Below, piece after piece: positions 11,060-60,491 of a stretch of 64,000 nucleotides of DNA. The position numbers were made by a program, and so were the translations under genes. Origin of the DNA: Mycolicibacterium boenickei (GTDB taxonomy: Bacteria; Actinomycetota; Actinomycetes; Mycobacteriales; Mycobacteriaceae); assembly GCF_010731295.1 (NCBI RefSeq), contig NZ_AP022579.1:3534001-3598000 (forward strand), read 5' to 3'. Below the pieces are notes generated by a model. That model did no database searches and was not told the origin of the DNA. It saw only the letters and a program-made list of their open reading frames with translations. Positions within the stretch are counted from its first letter, which is position 1. Every line of letters begins with the position of its first letter.

Positions 11060-13729
11060 TTGGGTGCTGCGAAGTACGTCGGTCGGGTAGGAGGATTGGC
11101 AGTCGCGCTCGGGGTCGGGTCGGCGGTCGTTCTGGGTGGCCAGGCCACGGGCACCCCCGTCGCCTCGGCGTCGCCCGGTCCGGGTGACTCATCGTCCGAG
11201 TCCGCGTCCGCGCCGGCCACGAACAAAGGGCCGGCCAAGGAACGGCAGAGCGCCCGCTCGTTGCGGCAGGCCGCGGTCCGCGCGGCGATCAAGGACCGGG
11301 CCGCCAAGCTCGGCGAATCCGGCCGCCATCGGGTCAGCTCGACGACGCCGACATCCGATGTCGTGCAGTCGATCACCGACCGGCTCTCGGATGCCCAGGA
11401 CAGGGTTGCGGCCCGCCCGGCCCGCCGTGACGGTGACTCCAAGACGCCTGAGTCCACCAAGCCCGCGGCGGCCACCGAGGTTGAGACGCCGCGGGTCCTG
11501 TCGTCGCTGACGCCGAAACTGCCGCGCCCCCTGCGTGATCGTGCCCAGGACGAGGTCGCCGCTCCCGACGTACCCACGATCGAGGCTGCTGACACCGGCG
11601 CCGTCGACGCACCCGAAGCGAAACCAGAGGTCACCCCGACGACGAAGACCGAGACGGCCCCGGCTCCCGTGCGGAGCCTGATCGAGACCGTGGTCGACAA
11701 CATCGCCACCACCCTGGCCGGCAATTCGCCGAATGCGCCGCGGACCGATTCGCCCGCCGAGTGGGTTCTGCTCGCCGCCGCGCGCCGGGAGTTCTCCACG
11801 GCCGCCGTCTCACCCGCACTGGCGAGCCCGGGCGGCATCACCGCGACCCCGTCGGTCGGCATCGCCGACGGCATCATCAACGGCACCACGGGCGCGACGA
11901 GCACGAGCGGGCTACCGCTCACCTACACCGTGATCGGCGACCCGAGCGCGGGCGGCAAGGTCCGGCTCAACTCGGCCAACGGCACCTTCACGTTCCTGCC
12001 GTATGCCACCGTCGTCGACAGCCACGGCACCGAGAAGTTCACCGTGCTGGTCGCGGAAACCACGGCGTTCGACGCTGCGCTGCAACAGATCCCGATCGTC
12101 GGCTCGTTCGTGCCGCAGGTGCTGGTGATCGTGCACCAGGTGCCGGTGGTGAACGACCTGCTGGCCCCGCTCATCGGCGACGCCGAGGTGGTCGACGTCA
12201 GCGTCGACGTCGGGGCGCTGGCGCCCGGCGACACCCCGGTGGCCTACACGGTCAAGGTGACGTCCTTCGACGGCACGCCGATCAGCATGAACTGGTTCCC
12301 GGCGTCGGGCCTGCAGGCAGGGGAGGAGGCGCCGACGATCTTCAGCGGCGCCGGTCTGTCGAGTGCCGGTGACACCAACCCGTACTCCGGCGGCGCGACC
12401 GGCGTCGGCACCTTCCGGGACAACGGCTACAACGTCGTCACCTGGGATTCCCGCGGCGAGCACGCTTCGGGCGGGATCCTGCAGCTGGACAATCCGTTCT
12501 TCGAGGGCCGTGACATGTCGGCCCTGATCGACTACGTCGCCAAGCGGCCCAACACACAGCTCGACGGCGTGAACGACCCGCGCATGGGCATGGTGGGCGG
12601 CTCGTACGGCGGCGGCATCCAGTGGGTGACGGCGGGCACCGACAACCGGGTCGACGCGATCGTCCCGACGATCTCGTGGAACTCGCTGAACAGCTCGCTG
12701 TACCCCAATGAGGCGTTCAAGACGTCGTACGCGGCGCTGCTGCTGCTGTCCCTGGTGACGAGCGGCGCGAACATCAACAACCAGCTGTACAGCGGCATCT
12801 TCACGGGTGCGTTGCTCGGCATCCTGACCCCTGAGCAGCAGGCCGTCCTCGCCAGTAGCGGCCCGACCTCGCTGGTGAACAAGATCACCGCGCCGACGCT
12901 GATCATCCAGGGCACCGTCGACGTGTTGTTCCCGCTGCAGCAGGCCATCGACAACGCCAAGATCCTGGACGCCAACGGGGTTCCGGTGAAGATGGTCTGG
13001 TTCTGCGGTGGTCACGGCAACTGCGAAACCCCGCCGGGGGACAGCGCCGAGATGGTCCAGACCGCCACGCTGAGCTGGCTGGACACCTACGTCAAGCACA
13101 AGGGTGAGGACGTCGACGATGGTCTTCCTACGTTCCAGTGGATCGACCAGAACGGCGAGCACTACACGTCCGACCTGCTGCCGTCCGACCCCGATTTCGC
13201 CGGGACCCCCGTCACGGCGTCGGGCAGCGGCGGCCTGCTGGGCATCGTCCCGATCCTCGGCGGTTCCGGACCGGGAGCGGCAGGGATTCCGTTCGGGCTC
13301 GGTGACGGCACCAAGGCCACCAACGCCGTGAACACCACGGTGACCGCGCCGTCGGAGGGCACCACGCAGATCGTCGGTGCACCCGAGCTGACGATGACGT
13401 ACTCCGGCATCGGCACCAGCCGTCACGTCTACGCCCAGATCGTCGACGACCAGACCGGCCAGGTGATCGGCAACGTGGTCACGCCGATTCCGGTCACCCT
13501 CGACGGCAAGGAGCACACCGTCACCATCCCGATGGAGGCCGTGGCGTACACGCTGGAGCCCGGGCACACCGCGACGGTGCAGATCACCACTTCGGCGACA
13601 CCGTTCCTCAACTTCACCCAGTTCGGCGTCATCAACATCTCCGACGTGCAGGTCGCATTGCCGACGGCGGGGCCCGGGGCCAACGTGCAGCCCGCGTCGG
13701 ACGCCGCGCAGGAGGTGGTCAGCGTCTAG
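11060..13729 (+). CDS. Large exported alpha/beta hydrolase (S15/CocE-like)
   Basis: About 889 residues. A TTG start at 11060, 6 bases after GAGGAGG, gives the N-terminus GAAKYVGRVGGLAVALGVG, a signal-peptide form common in mycobacterial exported proteins; an upstream in-frame ATG at 11006 lacks this support. A low-complexity Ala/Pro/Ser/Thr region runs to about residue 265. A beta-sandwich cadherin/VCBS-like module follows, with LPLTYTVIGDPSAGGKV and NGTFTFLPYA. The hydrolase domain has nucleophile S515 (GGSYGG), acid D621 (GTVDVLFPL) and H652 (GGHGNC). A C-terminal beta domain resembles X-prolyl dipeptidyl-peptidases. It is a cell-envelope or secreted esterase/peptidase of unknown substrate. 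The gene overlaps the convergent crotonase gene by 4 bp. Confidence 0.85.
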   Translation: MGAAKYVGRVGGLAVALGVGSAVVLGGQATGTPVASASPGPGDSSSESASAPATNKGPAKERQSARSLRQAAVRAAIKDRAAKLGESGRHRVSSTTPTSDVVQSITDRLSDAQDRVAARPARRDGDSKTPESTKPAAATEVETPRVLSSLTPKLPRPLRDRAQDEVAAPDVPTIEAADTGAVDAPEAKPEVTPTTKTETAPAPVRSLIETVVDNIATTLAGNSPNAPRTDSPAEWVLLAAARREFSTAAVSPALASPGGITATPSVGIADGIINGTTGATSTSGLPLTYTVIGDPSAGGKVRLNSANGTFTFLPYATVVDSHGTEKFTVLVAETTAFDAALQQIPIVGSFVPQVLVIVHQVPVVNDLLAPLIGDAEVVDVSVDVGALAPGDTPVAYTVKVTSFDGTPISMNWFPASGLQAGEEAPTIFSGAGLSSAGDTNPYSGGATGVGTFRDNGYNVVTWDSRGEHASGGILQLDNPFFEGRDMSALIDYVAKRPNTQLDGVNDPRMGMVGGSYGGGIQWVTAGTDNRVDAIVPTISWNSLNSSLYPNEAFKTSYAALLLLSLVTSGANINNQLYSGIFTGALLGILTPEQQAVLASSGPTSLVNKITAPTLIIQGTVDVLFPLQQAIDNAKILDANGVPVKMVWFCGGHGNCETPPGDSAEMVQTATLSWLDTYVKHKGEDVDDGLPTFQWIDQNGEHYTSDLLPSDPDFAGTPVTASGSGGLLGIVPILGGSGPGAAGIPFGLGDGTKATNAVNTTVTAPSEGTTQIVGAPELTMTYSGIGTSRHVYAQIVDDQTGQVIGNVVTPIPVTLDGKEHTVTIPMEAVAYTLEPGHTATVQITTSATPFLNFTQFGVINISDVQVALPTAGPGANVQPASDAAQEVVSV

Positions 13730-53020: not shown

Positions 53021-54256
53021 ATGTCAACGGAAAACACCTATCTGAAGCGTCCGACCGGCTATGACGCCGAGCTGCGTTCGGTGTTCGGGCCGATCTTCGC
53101 GCAGATCGCCGAGGGGAATCGACAGCGTGAGGCCGACCGGGTGTTCCCGCACGAGCAGGTGCGCTGGTTGAACGATGCCGGATTCGGCACCTTGCGGATC
53201 TCGGCCGAGCAGGGCGGTTTCGGCGCGTCCTTGGAACAGACCTTCCTGCTGCTGGCCGAGCTGGGGGAGGCCGACGCCAATGTCGCCCACATCTGGCGCA
53301 ACCATCTGGCCTTCGTCGAGGACCGGCTCAACGCGCCGGCGTCGGAGGACAACACCACGTGGATCAAACGGTTTGTGGCCGGTGAATTCGTCGGCGGCGG
53401 CTGGACCGAGGCCAACAATCTGACCCTGGCCAATCTGGCCACGACGGTCACCGAGGAGGACGGTCACTGGTCGGTGACCGGCTCGAAATACTATGCAACG
53501 GGCAGCCTTTACGCCGACTGGCTGGATGTTCTCGGTCGCGGTAAGGACGGTGAGCTGTGGACGGCACTGGTGCGTGCCGACGATCCCGGCGTCACCCTCG
53601 TCGACGACTGGCGCGGGTTCGGCCAGCGCACCACGGGCAGCGGCTCGGCCCGCTATGACGGGGCCCGCGCCGAGCGCGGCAACGTGTTCCCGGCCGGCGA
53701 GCGGTTCACCTATCAGGCGCACTTCTACCAGATCGCCATGCTGGCGGTGCTGACCGGAATCATCAGGGCCGCGCAACGGGACGGTTCGGCCGCCTTGACG
53801 GCGCGGCAGCGTAACTATCCGCAGGGGCTGGCCGAGGTTCCGGCCGCCGATCCGCAGCTGCTGCAGGTCATCGGCGAGGTGTCGGCCGAGGCGTTCGGTG
53901 CGACGGCGGCGCTGGCACAGAGCGCCCGCAGCCTGGACCGGATCGTGGCCGGCCGGCTCGCGGGCAGCGATGACCAGGCCCGCCAGTTGCTCGTCGACGC
54001 CGAGGTGGCCGTCACCCAGGCCCAGCTGGTGATCGTGGCCGCGGCACTGCGGGCCACCACGCGGGTGTTCGACGCGCTGGGTGCCTCGGGCGTCTCCGAA
54101 GAGCTCGGCCTTGACCGGCATTGGCGCAACGCCCGCACGCTGGCCTCCCACAACCCGGTGGTCTACAAGGCGCGCATCCTCGGTGACTGGTTCATCAACG
54201 GCAAGGACCCGGTGGCCGACCTGGTGTCACGAGGACGCGGCGGACAGGGCAACTGA
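53021..54256 (+). CDS. DszC/SfnB-like acyl-CoA-dehydrogenase-fold monooxygenase
   Basis: 411 residues, starting on the base after the GNAT stop. The acyl-CoA-dehydrogenase fold is indicated by FGTLRISAEQGGFGASLEQT, GGGWTEANN, VTGSKYYATGSLYADWLDVL and the C-terminal LDRHWRNARTLASHNPVVYK. The last lacks the usual catalytic glutamate of dehydrogenases and matches the DszC/SfnB flavin-monooxygenase branch. It probably hydroxylates or oxidises at sulfur or nitrogen using reduced flavin. It ends the cluster. Confidence 0.9.
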   Translation: MSTENTYLKRPTGYDAELRSVFGPIFAQIAEGNRQREADRVFPHEQVRWLNDAGFGTLRISAEQGGFGASLEQTFLLLAELGEADANVAHIWRNHLAFVEDRLNAPASEDNTTWIKRFVAGEFVGGGWTEANNLTLANLATTVTEEDGHWSVTGSKYYATGSLYADWLDVLGRGKDGELWTALVRADDPGVTLVDDWRGFGQRTTGSGSARYDGARAERGNVFPAGERFTYQAHFYQIAMLAVLTGIIRAAQRDGSAALTARQRNYPQGLAEVPAADPQLLQVIGEVSAEAFGATAALAQSARSLDRIVAGRLAGSDDQARQLLVDAEVAVTQAQLVIVAAALRATTRVFDALGASGVSEELGLDRHWRNARTLASHNPVVYKARILGDWFINGKDPVADLVSRGRGGQGN

Positions 54257-56131: not shown

Positions 56132-57955
56132 TTAGGGTGAGCCCTCGGCGATCCGCCGGACCGCGTCGATGAACACGTCGATCTCCTCGAAGGTGTTGTA
56201 GAACGCGAAGGACGGCCGCACGGTCGCCTCCAGGCCGAGGCGGCGCAGGATCGGCTGGGCGCAGTGATGCCCGGCCCGCACCGCGATGCCCTCGGCGTTG
56301 AGCGCCTTGCCCACCTCCAGCGGCTCGTGCCCGGCCAGCACGAAGGACAGCACGCTGGCCTTCTCGTCGGCGGTGCCGACCAGTCGTACGCCCGGGATGG
56401 CCGCCAGCCGTGGGGTGGCGTACTCCAGCAGCGCGTGTTCGTACGCCGCGATGCGTTCGATACCGACGCGCTCCACGTAGCGCAGCGCCTCACCGAGCCC
56501 GACGGCGTCGGCGATGTTGCCGGTGCCGGCCTCGTACTTGTTCGGCGGGCCCTGATACAGCGACCGGTCGAGAGTGACGTCGGCGATCATGTTGCCGCCG
56601 CCCTGCCACGGCGGGGTCTCGGCGAGCACGTCCTCACGGCCGTACAGGGCACCGATTCCGGTGGGGCCGTAGATCTTGTGCCCGGAGAACACGAAGAAGT
56701 CGGCCCCGAGCTCGGCCACGTCGATCGGGATGTGTGGAATGGACTGCGCCCCGTCGATCAGCACCCGCGCCCCGTACCGGTGCCCGAGCTCGACGATGGT
56801 CTTGACCGGGGTCACGGTACCCAGCGCATTGGACACCTGGGTGGCGGCAACGAGTTTGGTCCGCGGCCCGAGCAGGTCCTCGAACTCGCTGAGCAACAGG
56901 TTGCCAGCGTCGTCCACCGGCGCCACCTTCAGCACCGCGCCAGTCTGCTGCGAGATCAGCTGCCACGGAACGATGTTGGCGTGGTGTTCCAGATGGGTGA
57001 TGACGATCTCGTCGCCCGGGCCCAGATGCTTGCCACCCCACGCATAGGCCACCAGATTGATCGCCTCGGTGGTACCGCGGACGAAGATGATCTCCTCGGC
57101 CTTCGATGCCCCGATGAAGCGGCGCACCGCCTCGCGCGCGTCCTCGTAGGCATCGGTAGCCCGAGCCGCCAATTCGTGTGCGGCCCGGTGGATGTTGGAG
57201 TTCTCGTGCGCATAGAAGTAGGCCAGCCGATCGATGACCGACTGTGGCTTCTGGGTGGTGGCTGCGTTGTCGAACCAGATCAGCGGTTTGCCGTTGACGG
57301 TCTCCCGCAGGATCGGGAAGTCCGCGCGGATGGCGTTGACGTCGAAGATCTCGTGGTCATCCCGCGCTGCCGGGACGGGTTCGGCCGCAATAGGTTCGGC
57401 GGGAGGTCGCAGGAAGTAGTAGCTTCCCGCGTCCTCAGATACCGCGGGCGCATCCGACCACCCGAGATTCGGTACTTCCGGAACCGCGCCCGGCCAGGTT
57501 GGAGCCGATCCGCGGGGTGCCACCGGCGCCGACGGGGGAGCGCTTGCCAGCACGCCCGGCACCGTCGGGACCAGGCCGGTGGGGACGGCGAACGCCTCCA
57601 GTCCACCGATGGGCGCGATGGGACTGGCCGCACTACCGCGGGGCGCTACCGGGACCACGCCCGGAATGCCCTCCGGCTCAGGAGACGTCGGTGCCGGTAC
57701 GAAAACCTCTGGCACCGCCACGAATTCGGCCGGCGTCGCCGGATGTGCCAGGCCGGCCGCGGCTGAGCCCGCCGACGCCGCCGAGGTGGTGTCCGGTGCT
57801 ACCCCGCGCGGAGCGACCTGCGTGGCCGACGGCGGGCTGTCGGGTCCCGGCCGGATGCTGGTCGCGTACAGCTGGGTTGCCAGCGCGGCCAGCTCGGCCG
57901 CGCTGATCGGAAGGTCGCTTTCGGCGTCTAGCGAGCGGAACTCACTTGTACTCAT
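56132..57955 (-). CDS. Encapsulin-cargo cysteine desulfurase (SufS-like) with long N-terminal extension
   Basis: 607 residues, about 200 more than SufS. Residues 1-200 are disordered and Pro/Ala/Val-rich, with VAPRG repeated at 47-51, 103-107 and 145-149. The type II PLP desulfurase core begins near 202. It has FDNAATTQKP, THLEHHANIVPW, PLP lysine K427 (FSGHKIYGPTG) and catalytic C565 (RAGHHCAQP). It releases sulfur from cysteine as a persulfide. In Synechococcus a homologue (CyD) is packed into the SrpI family 2A encapsulin through such an extension. Here the gene overlaps the shell gene by 14 bp, so the two are co-translated and probably form one compartment. Confidence 0.93.
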   Translation of the reverse strand: MSTSEFRSLDAESDLPISAAELAALATQLYATSIRPGPDSPPSATQVAPRGVAPDTTSAASAGSAAAGLAHPATPAEFVAVPEVFVPAPTSPEPEGIPGVVPVAPRGSAASPIAPIGGLEAFAVPTGLVPTVPGVLASAPPSAPVAPRGSAPTWPGAVPEVPNLGWSDAPAVSEDAGSYYFLRPPAEPIAAEPVPAARDDHEIFDVNAIRADFPILRETVNGKPLIWFDNAATTQKPQSVIDRLAYFYAHENSNIHRAAHELAARATDAYEDAREAVRRFIGASKAEEIIFVRGTTEAINLVAYAWGGKHLGPGDEIVITHLEHHANIVPWQLISQQTGAVLKVAPVDDAGNLLLSEFEDLLGPRTKLVAATQVSNALGTVTPVKTIVELGHRYGARVLIDGAQSIPHIPIDVAELGADFFVFSGHKIYGPTGIGALYGREDVLAETPPWQGGGNMIADVTLDRSLYQGPPNKYEAGTGNIADAVGLGEALRYVERVGIERIAAYEHALLEYATPRLAAIPGVRLVGTADEKASVLSFVLAGHEPLEVGKALNAEGIAVRAGHHCAQPILRRLGLEATVRPSFAFYNTFEEIDVFIDAVRRIAEGSP

Positions 57956-58865
57956 GGAAGTGGTCCACTCCGACGTCCTCGAGGACCGCCAGCGCGTCGT
58001 CGGTGAGCACCGCCAGCGACGAGTACAGGGTCACCAGGTAGGACGCGATGGCCGACCGGTTGATGCCGGTGAAGCGCACCGACAGGCCCGGGGCCTGCTC
58101 GCCGACCAGTCCCGGCTGGAACAGACCGACGACACCCTGACGCTCCTCACCGGTACGCACCAGGATGAACTTGGTCTTGCCGTCGGTCACCGGGACCTTG
58201 TCCGACGGCACGATCGGGATGCCGCGCCAGGTGATGAACTGAGCGCCGAACAGGCTGACGACTGGCGGCGGGACGCCGCGGCGGGTGGCTTCACGGCCGA
58301 ACGCCGCCACCCCGAGCGGATTGGTCAGGAAGAACGCCGGGGTCTTCCACACCTTGGTGATCAGCGAGTCCAGGTCGTCGGGGGTGGGGGTGCCGCGCAG
58401 GGTCTGGATGGTCTGCTCGGGCGTCACCTGCGACAGCAACCCGTACTCGGGGTTGTTGACCAGCTCGAACTCCTGGCGTTCCTTGATCGTCTCGATGGTC
58501 AGCCGCAACTGCTGGGCCACCTGATCGTGCGGGCTGGAGTACAGGTCGGACACCCGAGTGTGCACGTCGAGCAATGTCGAGATCGAGCGCAGGGTGTACT
58601 CGCGCGGACTGGTCTCGTAGTCCACGTAGGTCTCGGGCAGCGGCTCTTCGGTGCCTGCACCTTCCTCCGAGTGGATCGCCACCTGATCGGGGTTGACCAC
58701 CCGGTTCACCCGGTAGATGCCCGCCTCGACCGGGACCCAGCTCAGCAGGTGCAGCAGGAACCGAGGGGTGATGGTGGACAGCTGGGGAACGGTCTTGGTC
58801 GCATTCGCCAGCTGCCGGGCGGCAAGATCGCCGAGTGCCTGTGATTCGTTCTGCGCGGACGTCAC
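57942..58865 (-). CDS. Family 2A encapsulin shell protein (MMP-I/SrpI)
   Basis: 307-residue shell protein with HK97 phage-capsid fold, very close to the M. leprae major membrane protein I (MMP-I). Recognisable segments are LLHLLSWVPVEAGIYRVNRV, YETSPREYTLRSISTLLDVH in part, VWKTPAFFLTNPLGVAAFG and ERQGVVGLFQPGLVGEQAPG. Sixty such subunits form a nanocompartment in the Synechococcus homologue. The only likely cargo is the desulfurase that overlaps it. Upstream, 151 bases separate it from a divergent leaderless cysteine-rich ORF. Confidence 0.95.
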   Translation of the reverse strand: MTSAQNESQALGDLAARQLANATKTVPQLSTITPRFLLHLLSWVPVEAGIYRVNRVVNPDQVAIHSEEGAGTEEPLPETYVDYETSPREYTLRSISTLLDVHTRVSDLYSSPHDQVAQQLRLTIETIKERQEFELVNNPEYGLLSQVTPEQTIQTLRGTPTPDDLDSLITKVWKTPAFFLTNPLGVAAFGREATRRGVPPPVVSLFGAQFITWRGIPIVPSDKVPVTDGKTKFILVRTGEERQGVVGLFQPGLVGEQAPGLSVRFTGINRSAIASYLVTLYSSLAVLTDDALAVLEDVGVDHFHEYK

Positions 58866-59003: not shown

Positions 59004-59019
59004 TATGGTGGGCCGCATG
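59004..59019 (+). promoter_or_regulatory. -10 element placing the transcript start at the uORF ATG
   Basis: TATGGT (59004-59009) ends 8 bases before the ATG at 59017. The mRNA would start at or next to the ATG, giving a leaderless upstream ORF, as is common in mycobacteria. Confidence 0.5.
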
Positions 59020-59082
59020 CAACACGTCGAATCGCTGCGCGTCGCCATCGTGCGCTGCCTCGACGTGCGTTGTTGTTGTTGA
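59017..59082 (+). CDS. Leaderless polycysteine leader peptide (21 aa)
   Basis: The ORF encodes MQHVESLRVAIVRCLDVRCC plus a final Cys, so three consecutive TGT codons precede the TGA. Polycysteine leaderless ORFs are established cysteine-responsive attenuators in mycobacteria. Ribosomes stall on the Cys codons when cysteine is scarce and free a sequestered ribosome site downstream. The next gene is the TQXA-like protein at 59172. An anti-SD/SD pair in the following leader supports the mechanism. Confidence 0.82.
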   Translation: MQHVESLRVAIVRCLDVRCCC

Positions 59083-59171
59083 TTTTCTGACGCCCTCTTC
59101 TGCGTCGTCCGCCCGCTTTCTCGCGGTGCGTTGATGCGCGCGTATCCGGCCTTCAAGAAAGTCAACCCGCC
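59083..59171 (+). promoter_or_regulatory. Attenuator leader with anti-SD/SD pair
   Basis: CTTTCT (59116-59121) is the exact complement of the SD-like AGAAAG (59156-59161) that lies 10 bases before the ATG at 59172. Pairing would hide the ribosome site. The same arrangement is found in front of subI. Regulation by stalling on the uORF Cys codons is inferred. Confidence 0.6.
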
Positions 59172-60491
59172 ATGTCTGTCCTGTCTTTTGATGATTCCCG
59201 CGTCGAACTCCCGGTGGATTCCCAGGGAGCGTCCGGTCCGGTCGCCGTGCGCACCCGGATCCGTCCGCGCCGGGCCGATCCGGCGCCGATGACGCGGTAC
59301 CGCGGTGGCACCTATTCGCACACCGTGGACACCGTGGTGTTCACCGACGGCACCTCGGCGCGCACCGACCTGATCAGGCTGAATCCCAATGTGGAGGCCT
59401 ACTCGCTGGACTTCGCCGGGATCGCGCCCACCCGGCCGTCGCGGTATCAGGCCGCCACCTGGTCGGCGGTGCGCAACCTGCGTGCCCGCTCGTATGAGGC
59501 CGAGGTGGACTGGATCGTCCGCAACTCGTTTCCGACTCTCGGCACGGCTGAACTGAGCCGCCGGATGCGGGCGGCCGGGGTGCCGCTGGGCGCGGCCAAC
59601 CTGGCCGAACACGAGGCCATCGCGGCCACTCAGGCAGCCATCTGGTTGTTCACCAACGGGCTGGCGCTGGACAACCGGCCGCGCAACGAACCGACGAGGG
59701 CGCACCCCGACGCCGACGGGATCGTGTTCGAGTTCGACGGGGCACCCCAGCTGGGCGGCTACACGGTCGAACTGGAATCGACCGCCGCGGTGTCGTTGGT
59801 GCTGCAGAAGTCGCACGACGGCGTGCGGTGGGAGGACGTGGCGGCCTCGGGACTCAATGTCGCGGCCGGACGGGGCACGCATCGCCGGACCCTCGGGGTC
59901 GGCAGCACCGTGTCCTCGACCCGGCCCGGCCGCGGTGCGCAGGGTTACCGGTACTACCGGCTGGCCGTCCTGTCCGACCGTGACGCACTGGTGCGGATCA
60001 CCGATATCCGGTTCTGGCTCAACGGATCCGGCACGTTCGCCAACTCCGACCGGGTGGTACATCTGTACAACTATCTGACCGCCGGGGCCCGCGCGGCCCG
60101 GCGCGCCACCACGCCTCCCGCGTTGGCCGCCGAGGACGCCGTGGTCGAGGCGGGGTTGATCGGGCCGTTCCGGTTGCGGGCCACCGACACCGCGGCGCTC
60201 GCGGTGTCAGACGGGGCGGTCGTCGATCGCCACGGCCGGGAGCTGAGCGGCCCGGTCGAACCGGGCGACGAGTTCTTCCTGCGGGCGCCTGCGGGCGTCG
60301 ATCAGGTCGTGCTGACCGTGCGCGTCCCGGCCACCCCTGACGGCTTCGGCGGGCGCGTGATCACCGGAATCGCCGACGATGGCGCGAGCGGACTCACTCC
60401 GGTGGTGCTGGTGACCCCGGCTCAGCTGGAGGTCGAGTTCGACGTCCAGTTCGACGCCGCATGGTCGGGCCAGCTGACCCGCAGCGCCTGA
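59172..60491 (+). CDS. TQXA/thioester-domain-like protein
   Basis: 439 residues. The N-terminal half (about 40-165) resembles TQXA thioester domains, with the C-terminal signature ATQAAIWLFTNG (Q154). At the place where the thioester cysteine is expected the sequence reads EAYSLDF, so S78 replaces Cys and a Cys-Gln thioester cannot form. The C-terminal half is beta-rich with a lectin/F5-8-like feel (YTVELESTAAVSLVLQKSHD), then a second beta module. No signal peptide or membrane anchor is visible, which is odd for this mostly surface family. It lies under the polycysteine leader, so it is probably induced in low cysteine. Function is unknown. Confidence 0.75.
   Translation: MSVLSFDDSRVELPVDSQGASGPVAVRTRIRPRRADPAPMTRYRGGTYSHTVDTVVFTDGTSARTDLIRLNPNVEAYSLDFAGIAPTRPSRYQAATWSAVRNLRARSYEAEVDWIVRNSFPTLGTAELSRRMRAAGVPLGAANLAEHEAIAATQAAIWLFTNGLALDNRPRNEPTRAHPDADGIVFEFDGAPQLGGYTVELESTAAVSLVLQKSHDGVRWEDVAASGLNVAAGRGTHRRTLGVGSTVSSTRPGRGAQGYRYYRLAVLSDRDALVRITDIRFWLNGSGTFANSDRVVHLYNYLTAGARAARRATTPPALAAEDAVVEAGLIGPFRLRATDTAALAVSDGAVVDRHGRELSGPVEPGDEFFLRAPAGVDQVVLTVRVPATPDGFGGRVITGIADDGASGLTPVVLVTPAQLEVEFDVQFDAAWSGQLTRSA

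Follow-up and report, generated by a model that had tools for sequence, protein, structure and literature searches.

Among the systems closest to the one reported here is the family 2A encapsulin of Synechococcus elongatus, in which the shell protein SrpI (PDB 6x8m) is associated with a cysteine desulfurase, CyD. According to the main text of Nichols et al. (PMC8049743), the N-terminal 225 residues of this enzyme are necessary and sufficient for loading; residues 1-100 load it less well, and residues 155-183, which include AASPYYFLDG, fail alone. The same text describes LARLANEFFS and AASPYYFLDG as conserved tail motifs found in most SrpI-associated CyDs, and it places the compartment in M. 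smegmatis too. In the main text of the 2021 survey of Andreas and Giessen (PMC8346489), no specific targeting peptide is known for desulfurase encapsulins, and GPTGLGT, present twice in geosmin-synthase-like cargos, is the proposed targeting sequence of family 2B terpene-cyclase cargos. Here we describe a family 2A locus of Mycolicibacterium boenickei within a window of 64,000 nucleotides (the whole stretch that was analysed, positions 3,534,001 to 3,598,000 of NZ_AP022579.1). We suggest that the five-residue motif VAPRG, which occurs three times in the N-terminal tail of its desulfurase, is a good candidate tag for loading the enzyme into the shell. Like GPTGLGT, it is short and lies in a probably disordered segment of the cargo; unlike here, the GPTGLGT system has another sequence, another cargo and a family 2B shell.

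The shell gene (57942..58865, minus strand, 307 aa, GTG start; PF19307) scored 495.9 bits over residues 11-306 against NF041162, the NCBIfam model of family 2A shells with a cut-off of 380. It also barely passed the family 2B model (400.9 against 400 bits), in two stretches of the part common to both, but at 307 aa it lacks the cNMP insertion that marks family 2B shells. The desulfurase gene (56132..57955, minus strand, 607 aa, ATG start), hereafter CyD, reached 858.6 bits against a cut-off of 800 in NF041166, the model of family 2A cargo cysteine desulfurases, and 549.2 against 475.1 bits in the SufS model; it is a SufS-type enzyme with an N-terminal extension, encoded next to a shell. SGHK at residue 424 and RAGHHC at residue 560 are taken to be its pyridoxal phosphate lysine and catalytic cysteine motifs. 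By these model matches the locus is a mycobacterial family 2A encapsulin with a cysteine desulfurase, as the initial annotation had proposed; the shell is of the HK97 fold and the enzyme of the SufS type. The 14-bp overlap of the two genes that it had noted was found at 57942-57955 and recurs in all 29 readable loci of 30 from mycobacteria (L013 stops at a contig end). The shell is 66.1% identical to SrpI, the S. elongatus locus likewise having a nearby desulfurase; there, unlike here, the two genes do not overlap and stand 234 bp apart.

The host genome (6.59 Mb, two contigs, completeness 100) contains a single shell match. Among the best 120 of 7995 database matches, all of them close to the query sequence, the closest named CyD homologues were Mycolicibacterium proteins, including those of M. 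boenickei, at 97% over the searched region. Phmmer matches of the shell in the PDB were 9ksl, 8wol and 8won (Major membrane protein I or 1), 8t6r and SrpI 6x8m, and residues 191-606 of CyD matched 8kg1; 9ksl, 8wol, 8won and 8kg1, which are Major membrane protein I shells and cysteine desulfurase, are the best matches among solved structures. By analogy with such relatives, for example 8wol with its 60 chains, the shell probably assembles into an icosahedral particle. Because the alignment to 8kg1 starts only at residue 191 of CyD and the tail matched no PDB chain at E<=10, the loading contact is not visible there.

Residues 1-201 of CyD (57353..57955, minus strand) form a low-complexity tail (alanine 20.4%, proline 17.9%, arginine 3.5%, no lysine), which by homology is presumably the loading domain of the enzyme. 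The initial annotation had called it disordered. The composition fits this description, but the AlphaFold2 model of CyD proves little, as it has a mean pLDDT of 35.7, shows one helix (residues 19-32) within the first 201 residues and is poor for the folded enzyme too. No second protein with a similar tail was found in the same genome at E<=10 by overall similarity, a search that an unrelated VAPRG-bearing protein would escape. The three VAPRG copies that the initial annotation had counted begin at residues 47 (57803..57817), 103 (57635..57649) and 145 (57509..57523), all on the minus strand, and hold three of the seven arginines of the tail. The flanks, which had been described as similar, are so only weakly: Ser-Ala follows copies 2 and 3, and PGV lies five residues ahead of copy 2 (PGVVPVAPRG) but 12 ahead of copy 3.

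How surprising is such a repeat in a single tail? Some five-residue word occurred three times in 62 of 20000 full shuffles of the 201 residues, and in 45 of 20000 local shuffles (20 residues). Three copies in one alanine- and proline-rich tail are therefore unusual but not extreme, and only mildly surprising. It could be held, on the strength of these shuffles and of a longer unit around VAPRG that is repeated by eye in L014, L016 and L018, that the repeats are a functionless by-product of composition and tandem duplication. Conservation between species is the stronger evidence for VAPRG, as judged from the alignments described below, and it makes such a by-product very improbable.

A search of the genus gave a shell match in 49 of 148 genomes, themselves a sample of a larger group. 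Thirty of these yielded loci and 17 more yielded 18 regions, and two (G059 and G089) were left out for CyD. From the 48 mycobacterial loci we obtained 44 tails, of which the genome G098 contributed two. Those dropped were L013 at its contig end, L182, whose start was missed by the pattern (two VAPRG by eye), and L191 and L192, which had no tail frame and in whose genomes the shell match is either split or interrupted by a stop. The 44 tails are related by ancestry and the counts made on them are not independent events; VAPRG had been picked beforehand from the single window sequence.

In these tails VAPRG was present in zero, one, two or three copies in 1, 3, 23 and 17 cases, and the shorter APRG in 1, 3, 14 and 26 cases. 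At least two APRG were thus found in 40 of 44 tails, compared to a mean of 0.01 in shuffles. Full-length database homologues among the best 120 of 7995 gave a similar picture, with at least two APRG in 97 of 111 and at least one VAPRG in 109 of 111. In the codon alignment of the 44 tails, the ratio of nonsynonymous to synonymous change (pN/pS) was 0.168 for VAPRG. Tail codons outside any marked motif had a ratio of 0.541, and the 32 codons past residue 201 one of 0.166. The synonymous component pS was 0.612, 0.572 and 0.423, respectively; as it is similar in VAPRG to that elsewhere or above it, selection acts on the peptide and not on the DNA. Random triples of five-codon blocks had a pN/pS of 0.168 or below in only 6 of 20000 draws. 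Copies 1 (pN/pS 0.095, VAPRG in 36 of 44 rows) and 2 (0.088, 34 of 44 rows with a gap in five) ranked in the top three of 197 blocks for constraint, and copy 3 (VAPRG in 29 of 44 rows) was looser. The codon comparison demonstrates that VAPRG is under strong selection at the peptide level. We therefore reject the neutral by-product of composition, on its low pN/pS at a high pS and on the random block triples. The initial annotation had proposed an alignment of mycobacterial extensions; there the motif proved both conserved and repeated, so that the objection of no conservation fails.

We suggest that the shell would enclose the desulfurase through the flexible N-terminal tail of the enzyme, and that the VAPRG repeats would dock this tail to the shell in a lineage-specific and multivalent manner. 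As far as the alignments allow a judgement, such docking may be the likeliest job of VAPRG, and we would give it about even chances.

Several observations weigh against it. When 97 non-redundant mycobacterial tails out of 155 were ranked by an entropy-type score, the three copies came only 39, 52 and 102 among 224 blocks, the final ones of which belong to the enzyme. Within residues 1-200 they stood at percentiles 93, 88 and 63, and were not the best-kept blocks. Identity per residue in the 97 tails was 0.81-0.99, 0.87-0.91 and 0.61-0.96 for copies 1, 2 and 3, and the third copy is weakly kept (pN/pS 0.299). APRG is down to a single copy in three of the 44 tails and missing from a fourth. Other blocks are constrained too (pN/pS 0.24-0.30, values biased low because these motif classes were picked after viewing the alignment), namely the helix motif, RPGPDSPP, PAPTSPEPE, a block beginning FAVP, and YYFL; constraint alone therefore cannot single out the docking element. 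On the minus strand of the window, the helix motif ELAALATQLYA lies at 57863..57895 (residues 21-31, within the helix 19-32 of the poor model; pN/pS 0.254), the second conserved block, FAVPTGLVPTVPGVLA, at 57545..57592 (residues 122-137; pN/pS 0.251), and YYFL at 57410..57421 (residues 179-182). In two reduced genomes of about 3.27 Mb, presumably those of leprosy bacilli, the copies have eroded in a frame that is open as far as read: VAPRG, VALHG and VASRN in L180, with one intact, and VALRG, VFSRG and VAPRN in L187, with none. Finally, a short DNA repeat lies within VAPR|G in several homologues.

In L005, L006, L007 and homologues such as P0017, P0079 and P0084, this short repeat, with the core CCCGTCGCTSCGCTCGCCCC, was found either within VAPR|G or, in the opposite orientation, close to the CyD N-terminus. 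Exact copies of the core occurred in four of ten genomes searched (six in G087, five in G063, four in G109 and one in G141) and not in the genome of the window. Two of those in G087, one in G063 and one in G109 were placed in the CyD gene.

Outside mycobacteria the motif was not found in repeated form. For the sister genera, that is, other genera of the same family, seven of eight were counted (L032 was missed by the pattern and has no VAPRG by eye; L044 has no CyD frame). From other phyla, mostly beta- and gammaproteobacteria, 85 of 87 were counted (L112 and L159 dropped). Acinetobacter provided 27 of these 87 loci and 26 of the 85 tails. A query led by Acinetobacter had 582 confirmed relatives, and the best 80 of them make up 80 of the 87; the 85 tails are therefore not independent of one another and do not represent the family fairly. 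At least two APRG occurred in 0 of 7 sister-genus tails and likewise in 0 of 85 tails of other phyla; a single APRG was seen in one of the 85. VAPRG as a tag of the whole 2A family is rejected on these 0 of 92 tails. A targeting peptide should be preserved among the homologous cargos of one type of shell, and VAPRG behaves so within mycobacteria only. The proposal of the initial annotation that VAPRG is a candidate targeting peptide therefore holds in part: the motif is conserved and repeated in mycobacteria, but it is no general 2A tag and its copy number is loose. In contrast, tails with two or more matches to [YF]YF[LIMVA] numbered 68 of 85 in other phyla, 3 of 7 in sister genera and 0 of 44 in mycobacteria (shuffle mean 0). 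As most of the non-mycobacterial tails in the sample have YYFL in duplicate, mycobacteria have seemingly kept multivalency and changed the motif that is repeated. This swap suggests that the family keeps multivalency more than any one peptide. In the sister-genus tail L033, a repeat doubles a segment with YYFLD, a parallel route to motif multiplication.

The initial annotation had also presented VAPRG as a specific candidate, but the two conserved tail motifs described by Nichols et al. in the main text (PMC8049743) have counterparts here. By eye, LAALATQLYA (from residue 22) is the counterpart of LARLANEFFS, and YYFL (from residue 179) that of AASPYYFLDG, so that both published motifs are kept in one copy each. 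It is possible, with a probability that we regard as well below even, that loading depends on a family-wide N-terminal helix, LAxLAxQLYA, together with YYFL, and that VAPRG serves for spacing, for another partner or for a contact with sulfur species in the lumen. The motifs published for most SrpI-associated CyDs and the partial loading by residues 1-100 of the S. elongatus enzyme are consistent with this, as is the lack of VAPRG in the 92 tails counted outside mycobacteria, though such a system loads cargo. The S. elongatus tail is likewise long and of low complexity, with one aromatic YF motif (GFYFID), but unlike here it has no VAPRG. A role based on charge is possible too, given that arginine is rare in the tail, lysine is absent and three of the seven arginines sit in VAPRG. 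However, the duplication of a motif in a loading tail parallels that of YYFL elsewhere, which docking explains better than spacing would, and a pN/pS as low as that of the codons past the tail is strict for a spacer. We accordingly prefer multivalent docking by VAPRG. The motif is absent from the main texts of PMC8049743 and PMC8346489, and a literature search for it returned nothing on encapsulins by title; a mention in the papers on Acinetobacter or 2-methylisoborneol encapsulins is possible. With a five-residue motif of so clear an evolutionary signature, the question of a desulfurase targeting peptide becomes a small deletion experiment.

On the shell side, the comparison took in 40 of 46 mycobacterial, seven of eight sister-genus and all 87 other loci. 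Twenty-four positions, T266, E241, E67, A193 and V202 among them, were kept in at least 90% of the 40 mycobacterial shells and were rare in the 7 sister-genus and 87 other shells. One of them, T266 (M263 in SrpI), adjoins F262, which Nichols et al. placed near cargo density in the main text (PMC8049743). Set against this, by our own arithmetic one of 24 positions would fall within such a distance of F262 or Y273 by chance in roughly 40% of cases. These positions are rejected as proof of co-adaptation, because T266 is near chance and one common ancestry explains all of them; T266 beside F262 is suggestive as a lead only.

Divergent to the shell gene lies a gene (59172..60491, plus strand) for a thioester-domain-like (TED/TQXA) protein of 439 aa, which passed PF08341 (36.7 bits over 22) and TIGR03934 (56.3 over 30.4) and has no cysteine. 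Its AlphaFold2 model from a single sequence is poor (mean pLDDT 46.4). Every one of the 49 shell genomes among the 148 of the genus had a TED-like match, in each case beside the shell; in G089 and G105 it consists of fragments only, and the shell is broken as well. Weaker or partial matches occurred in three further genomes of the 148 (G070, G139, G146). In other genera the gene was found in one of nine shell-bearing genomes (G189, beside the shell) and in none of the other eight. The S. elongatus locus has cysK, epsC and a rhodanese as neighbours and no TED-like gene within the 7.9 kb examined. The word 'thioester' is absent from the main texts of the encapsulin papers PMC8049743 and PMC8346489. 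In G098, which has two shell-desulfurase pairs (L181, L184), just one pair has the sole TED-like match of that genome next to it.

One full-model TED sequence has AYC at a place at which all 30 TED-like proteins compared have AYS[LV]D, and 14 of the 30 have no cysteine at all. The cysteine of AYC is the residue that forms the thioester. With a serine in its place, and 14 proteins free of cysteine, a canonical thioester could not form.

The TED-like gene and the VAPRG tails have nearly the same range: the gene accompanies every genus shell and is absent from eight of nine shell genomes elsewhere, and the readable tails of those genomes have no VAPRG (the ninth, G189, ends ahead of the tail). 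It could be, therefore, that VAPRG binds this nearly mycobacteria-specific protein instead of the shell. However, common ancestry alone can explain the matching ranges, and the TED-like gene is oppositely transcribed and probably under a separate, cysteine-attenuated control. We consider such binding unlikely, and docking to the shell is still preferred.

The control in question is suggested by the leader of the TED-like gene. A -10-like hexamer, TATGGT (59004..59009, plus strand), stands 7 nt ahead of the ATG of an upstream open reading frame (uORF), which points to a leaderless start; a TAnnnT hexamer lies 6-7 nt ahead of the uORF ATG in related loci. The uORF (59017..59082, plus strand), MQHVESLRVAIVRCLDVRCCC, is of a poly-cysteine type that is present in 30 of 30 mycobacterial loci (L001-L030). 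In the leader at 59078..59171 (plus strand), the tail of the uORF is predicted to pair with the Shine-Dalgarno region of the next gene. The predicted fold of the window leader outdid that of every one of 200 shuffles (z -3.93). In 30 of 30 predicted folds the uORF tail paired with three or more bases of the Shine-Dalgarno sequence, and shuffled partners in duplex tests matched or beat the observed pairing in 0 to 24 of 200. Thus a leaderless-type uORF, a cysteine run and a tail able to sequester the ribosome binding site were found together in 30 of 30 loci, by prediction only. When 30 genus loci were taken around the TED-like gene, the uORF was present in 28 and absent from L215 and L219. The same pattern found no poly-cysteine uORF in four further loci (two of G189, G070 and G139). 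The locus L219 is from the same genome as L187, whose VAPRG copies have eroded. Another poly-cysteine frame lies at 12708 in the window.

In view of these predicted folds, the leader is likely to be a cysteine-responsive attenuator of the TED-like gene. Canestrari et al. (2020) reportedly described poly-cysteine leaderless uORF attenuators of mycobacteria that respond to cysteine. As in those attenuators, a leaderless-type uORF ends here in a cysteine run with a tail complementary to the next Shine-Dalgarno region; the difference is that the present one stands beside an encapsulin and ahead of a TED-like gene. That work is cited in PMC9094748 and PMC13236596.

Taken as a whole, mycobacterial 2A encapsulins might be a lineage-specific module, in which the docking code has changed from duplicated YYFL to repeated VAPRG. 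A divergently encoded, cysteine-attenuated, thioester-less TED-like protein, tied to the shell-cargo pair and made at cysteine shortage, would then act on the compartment, for example in the release or handling of stored sulfur. We offer this tentatively and think it rather improbable as it stands. The tightly linked TED-like gene and the predicted cysteine sensor offer a concrete starting point for asking how the supply of cysteine might be linked to the compartment in mycobacteria.

PADLOC returned nothing. About 1.9 kb from CyD, at 53021-54256 on the plus strand, lies an acyl-CoA-dehydrogenase-like gene whose nearest family is that of SfnB, of sulfur acquisition, at a score under the cut-off (237.1 against 430.9 bits).

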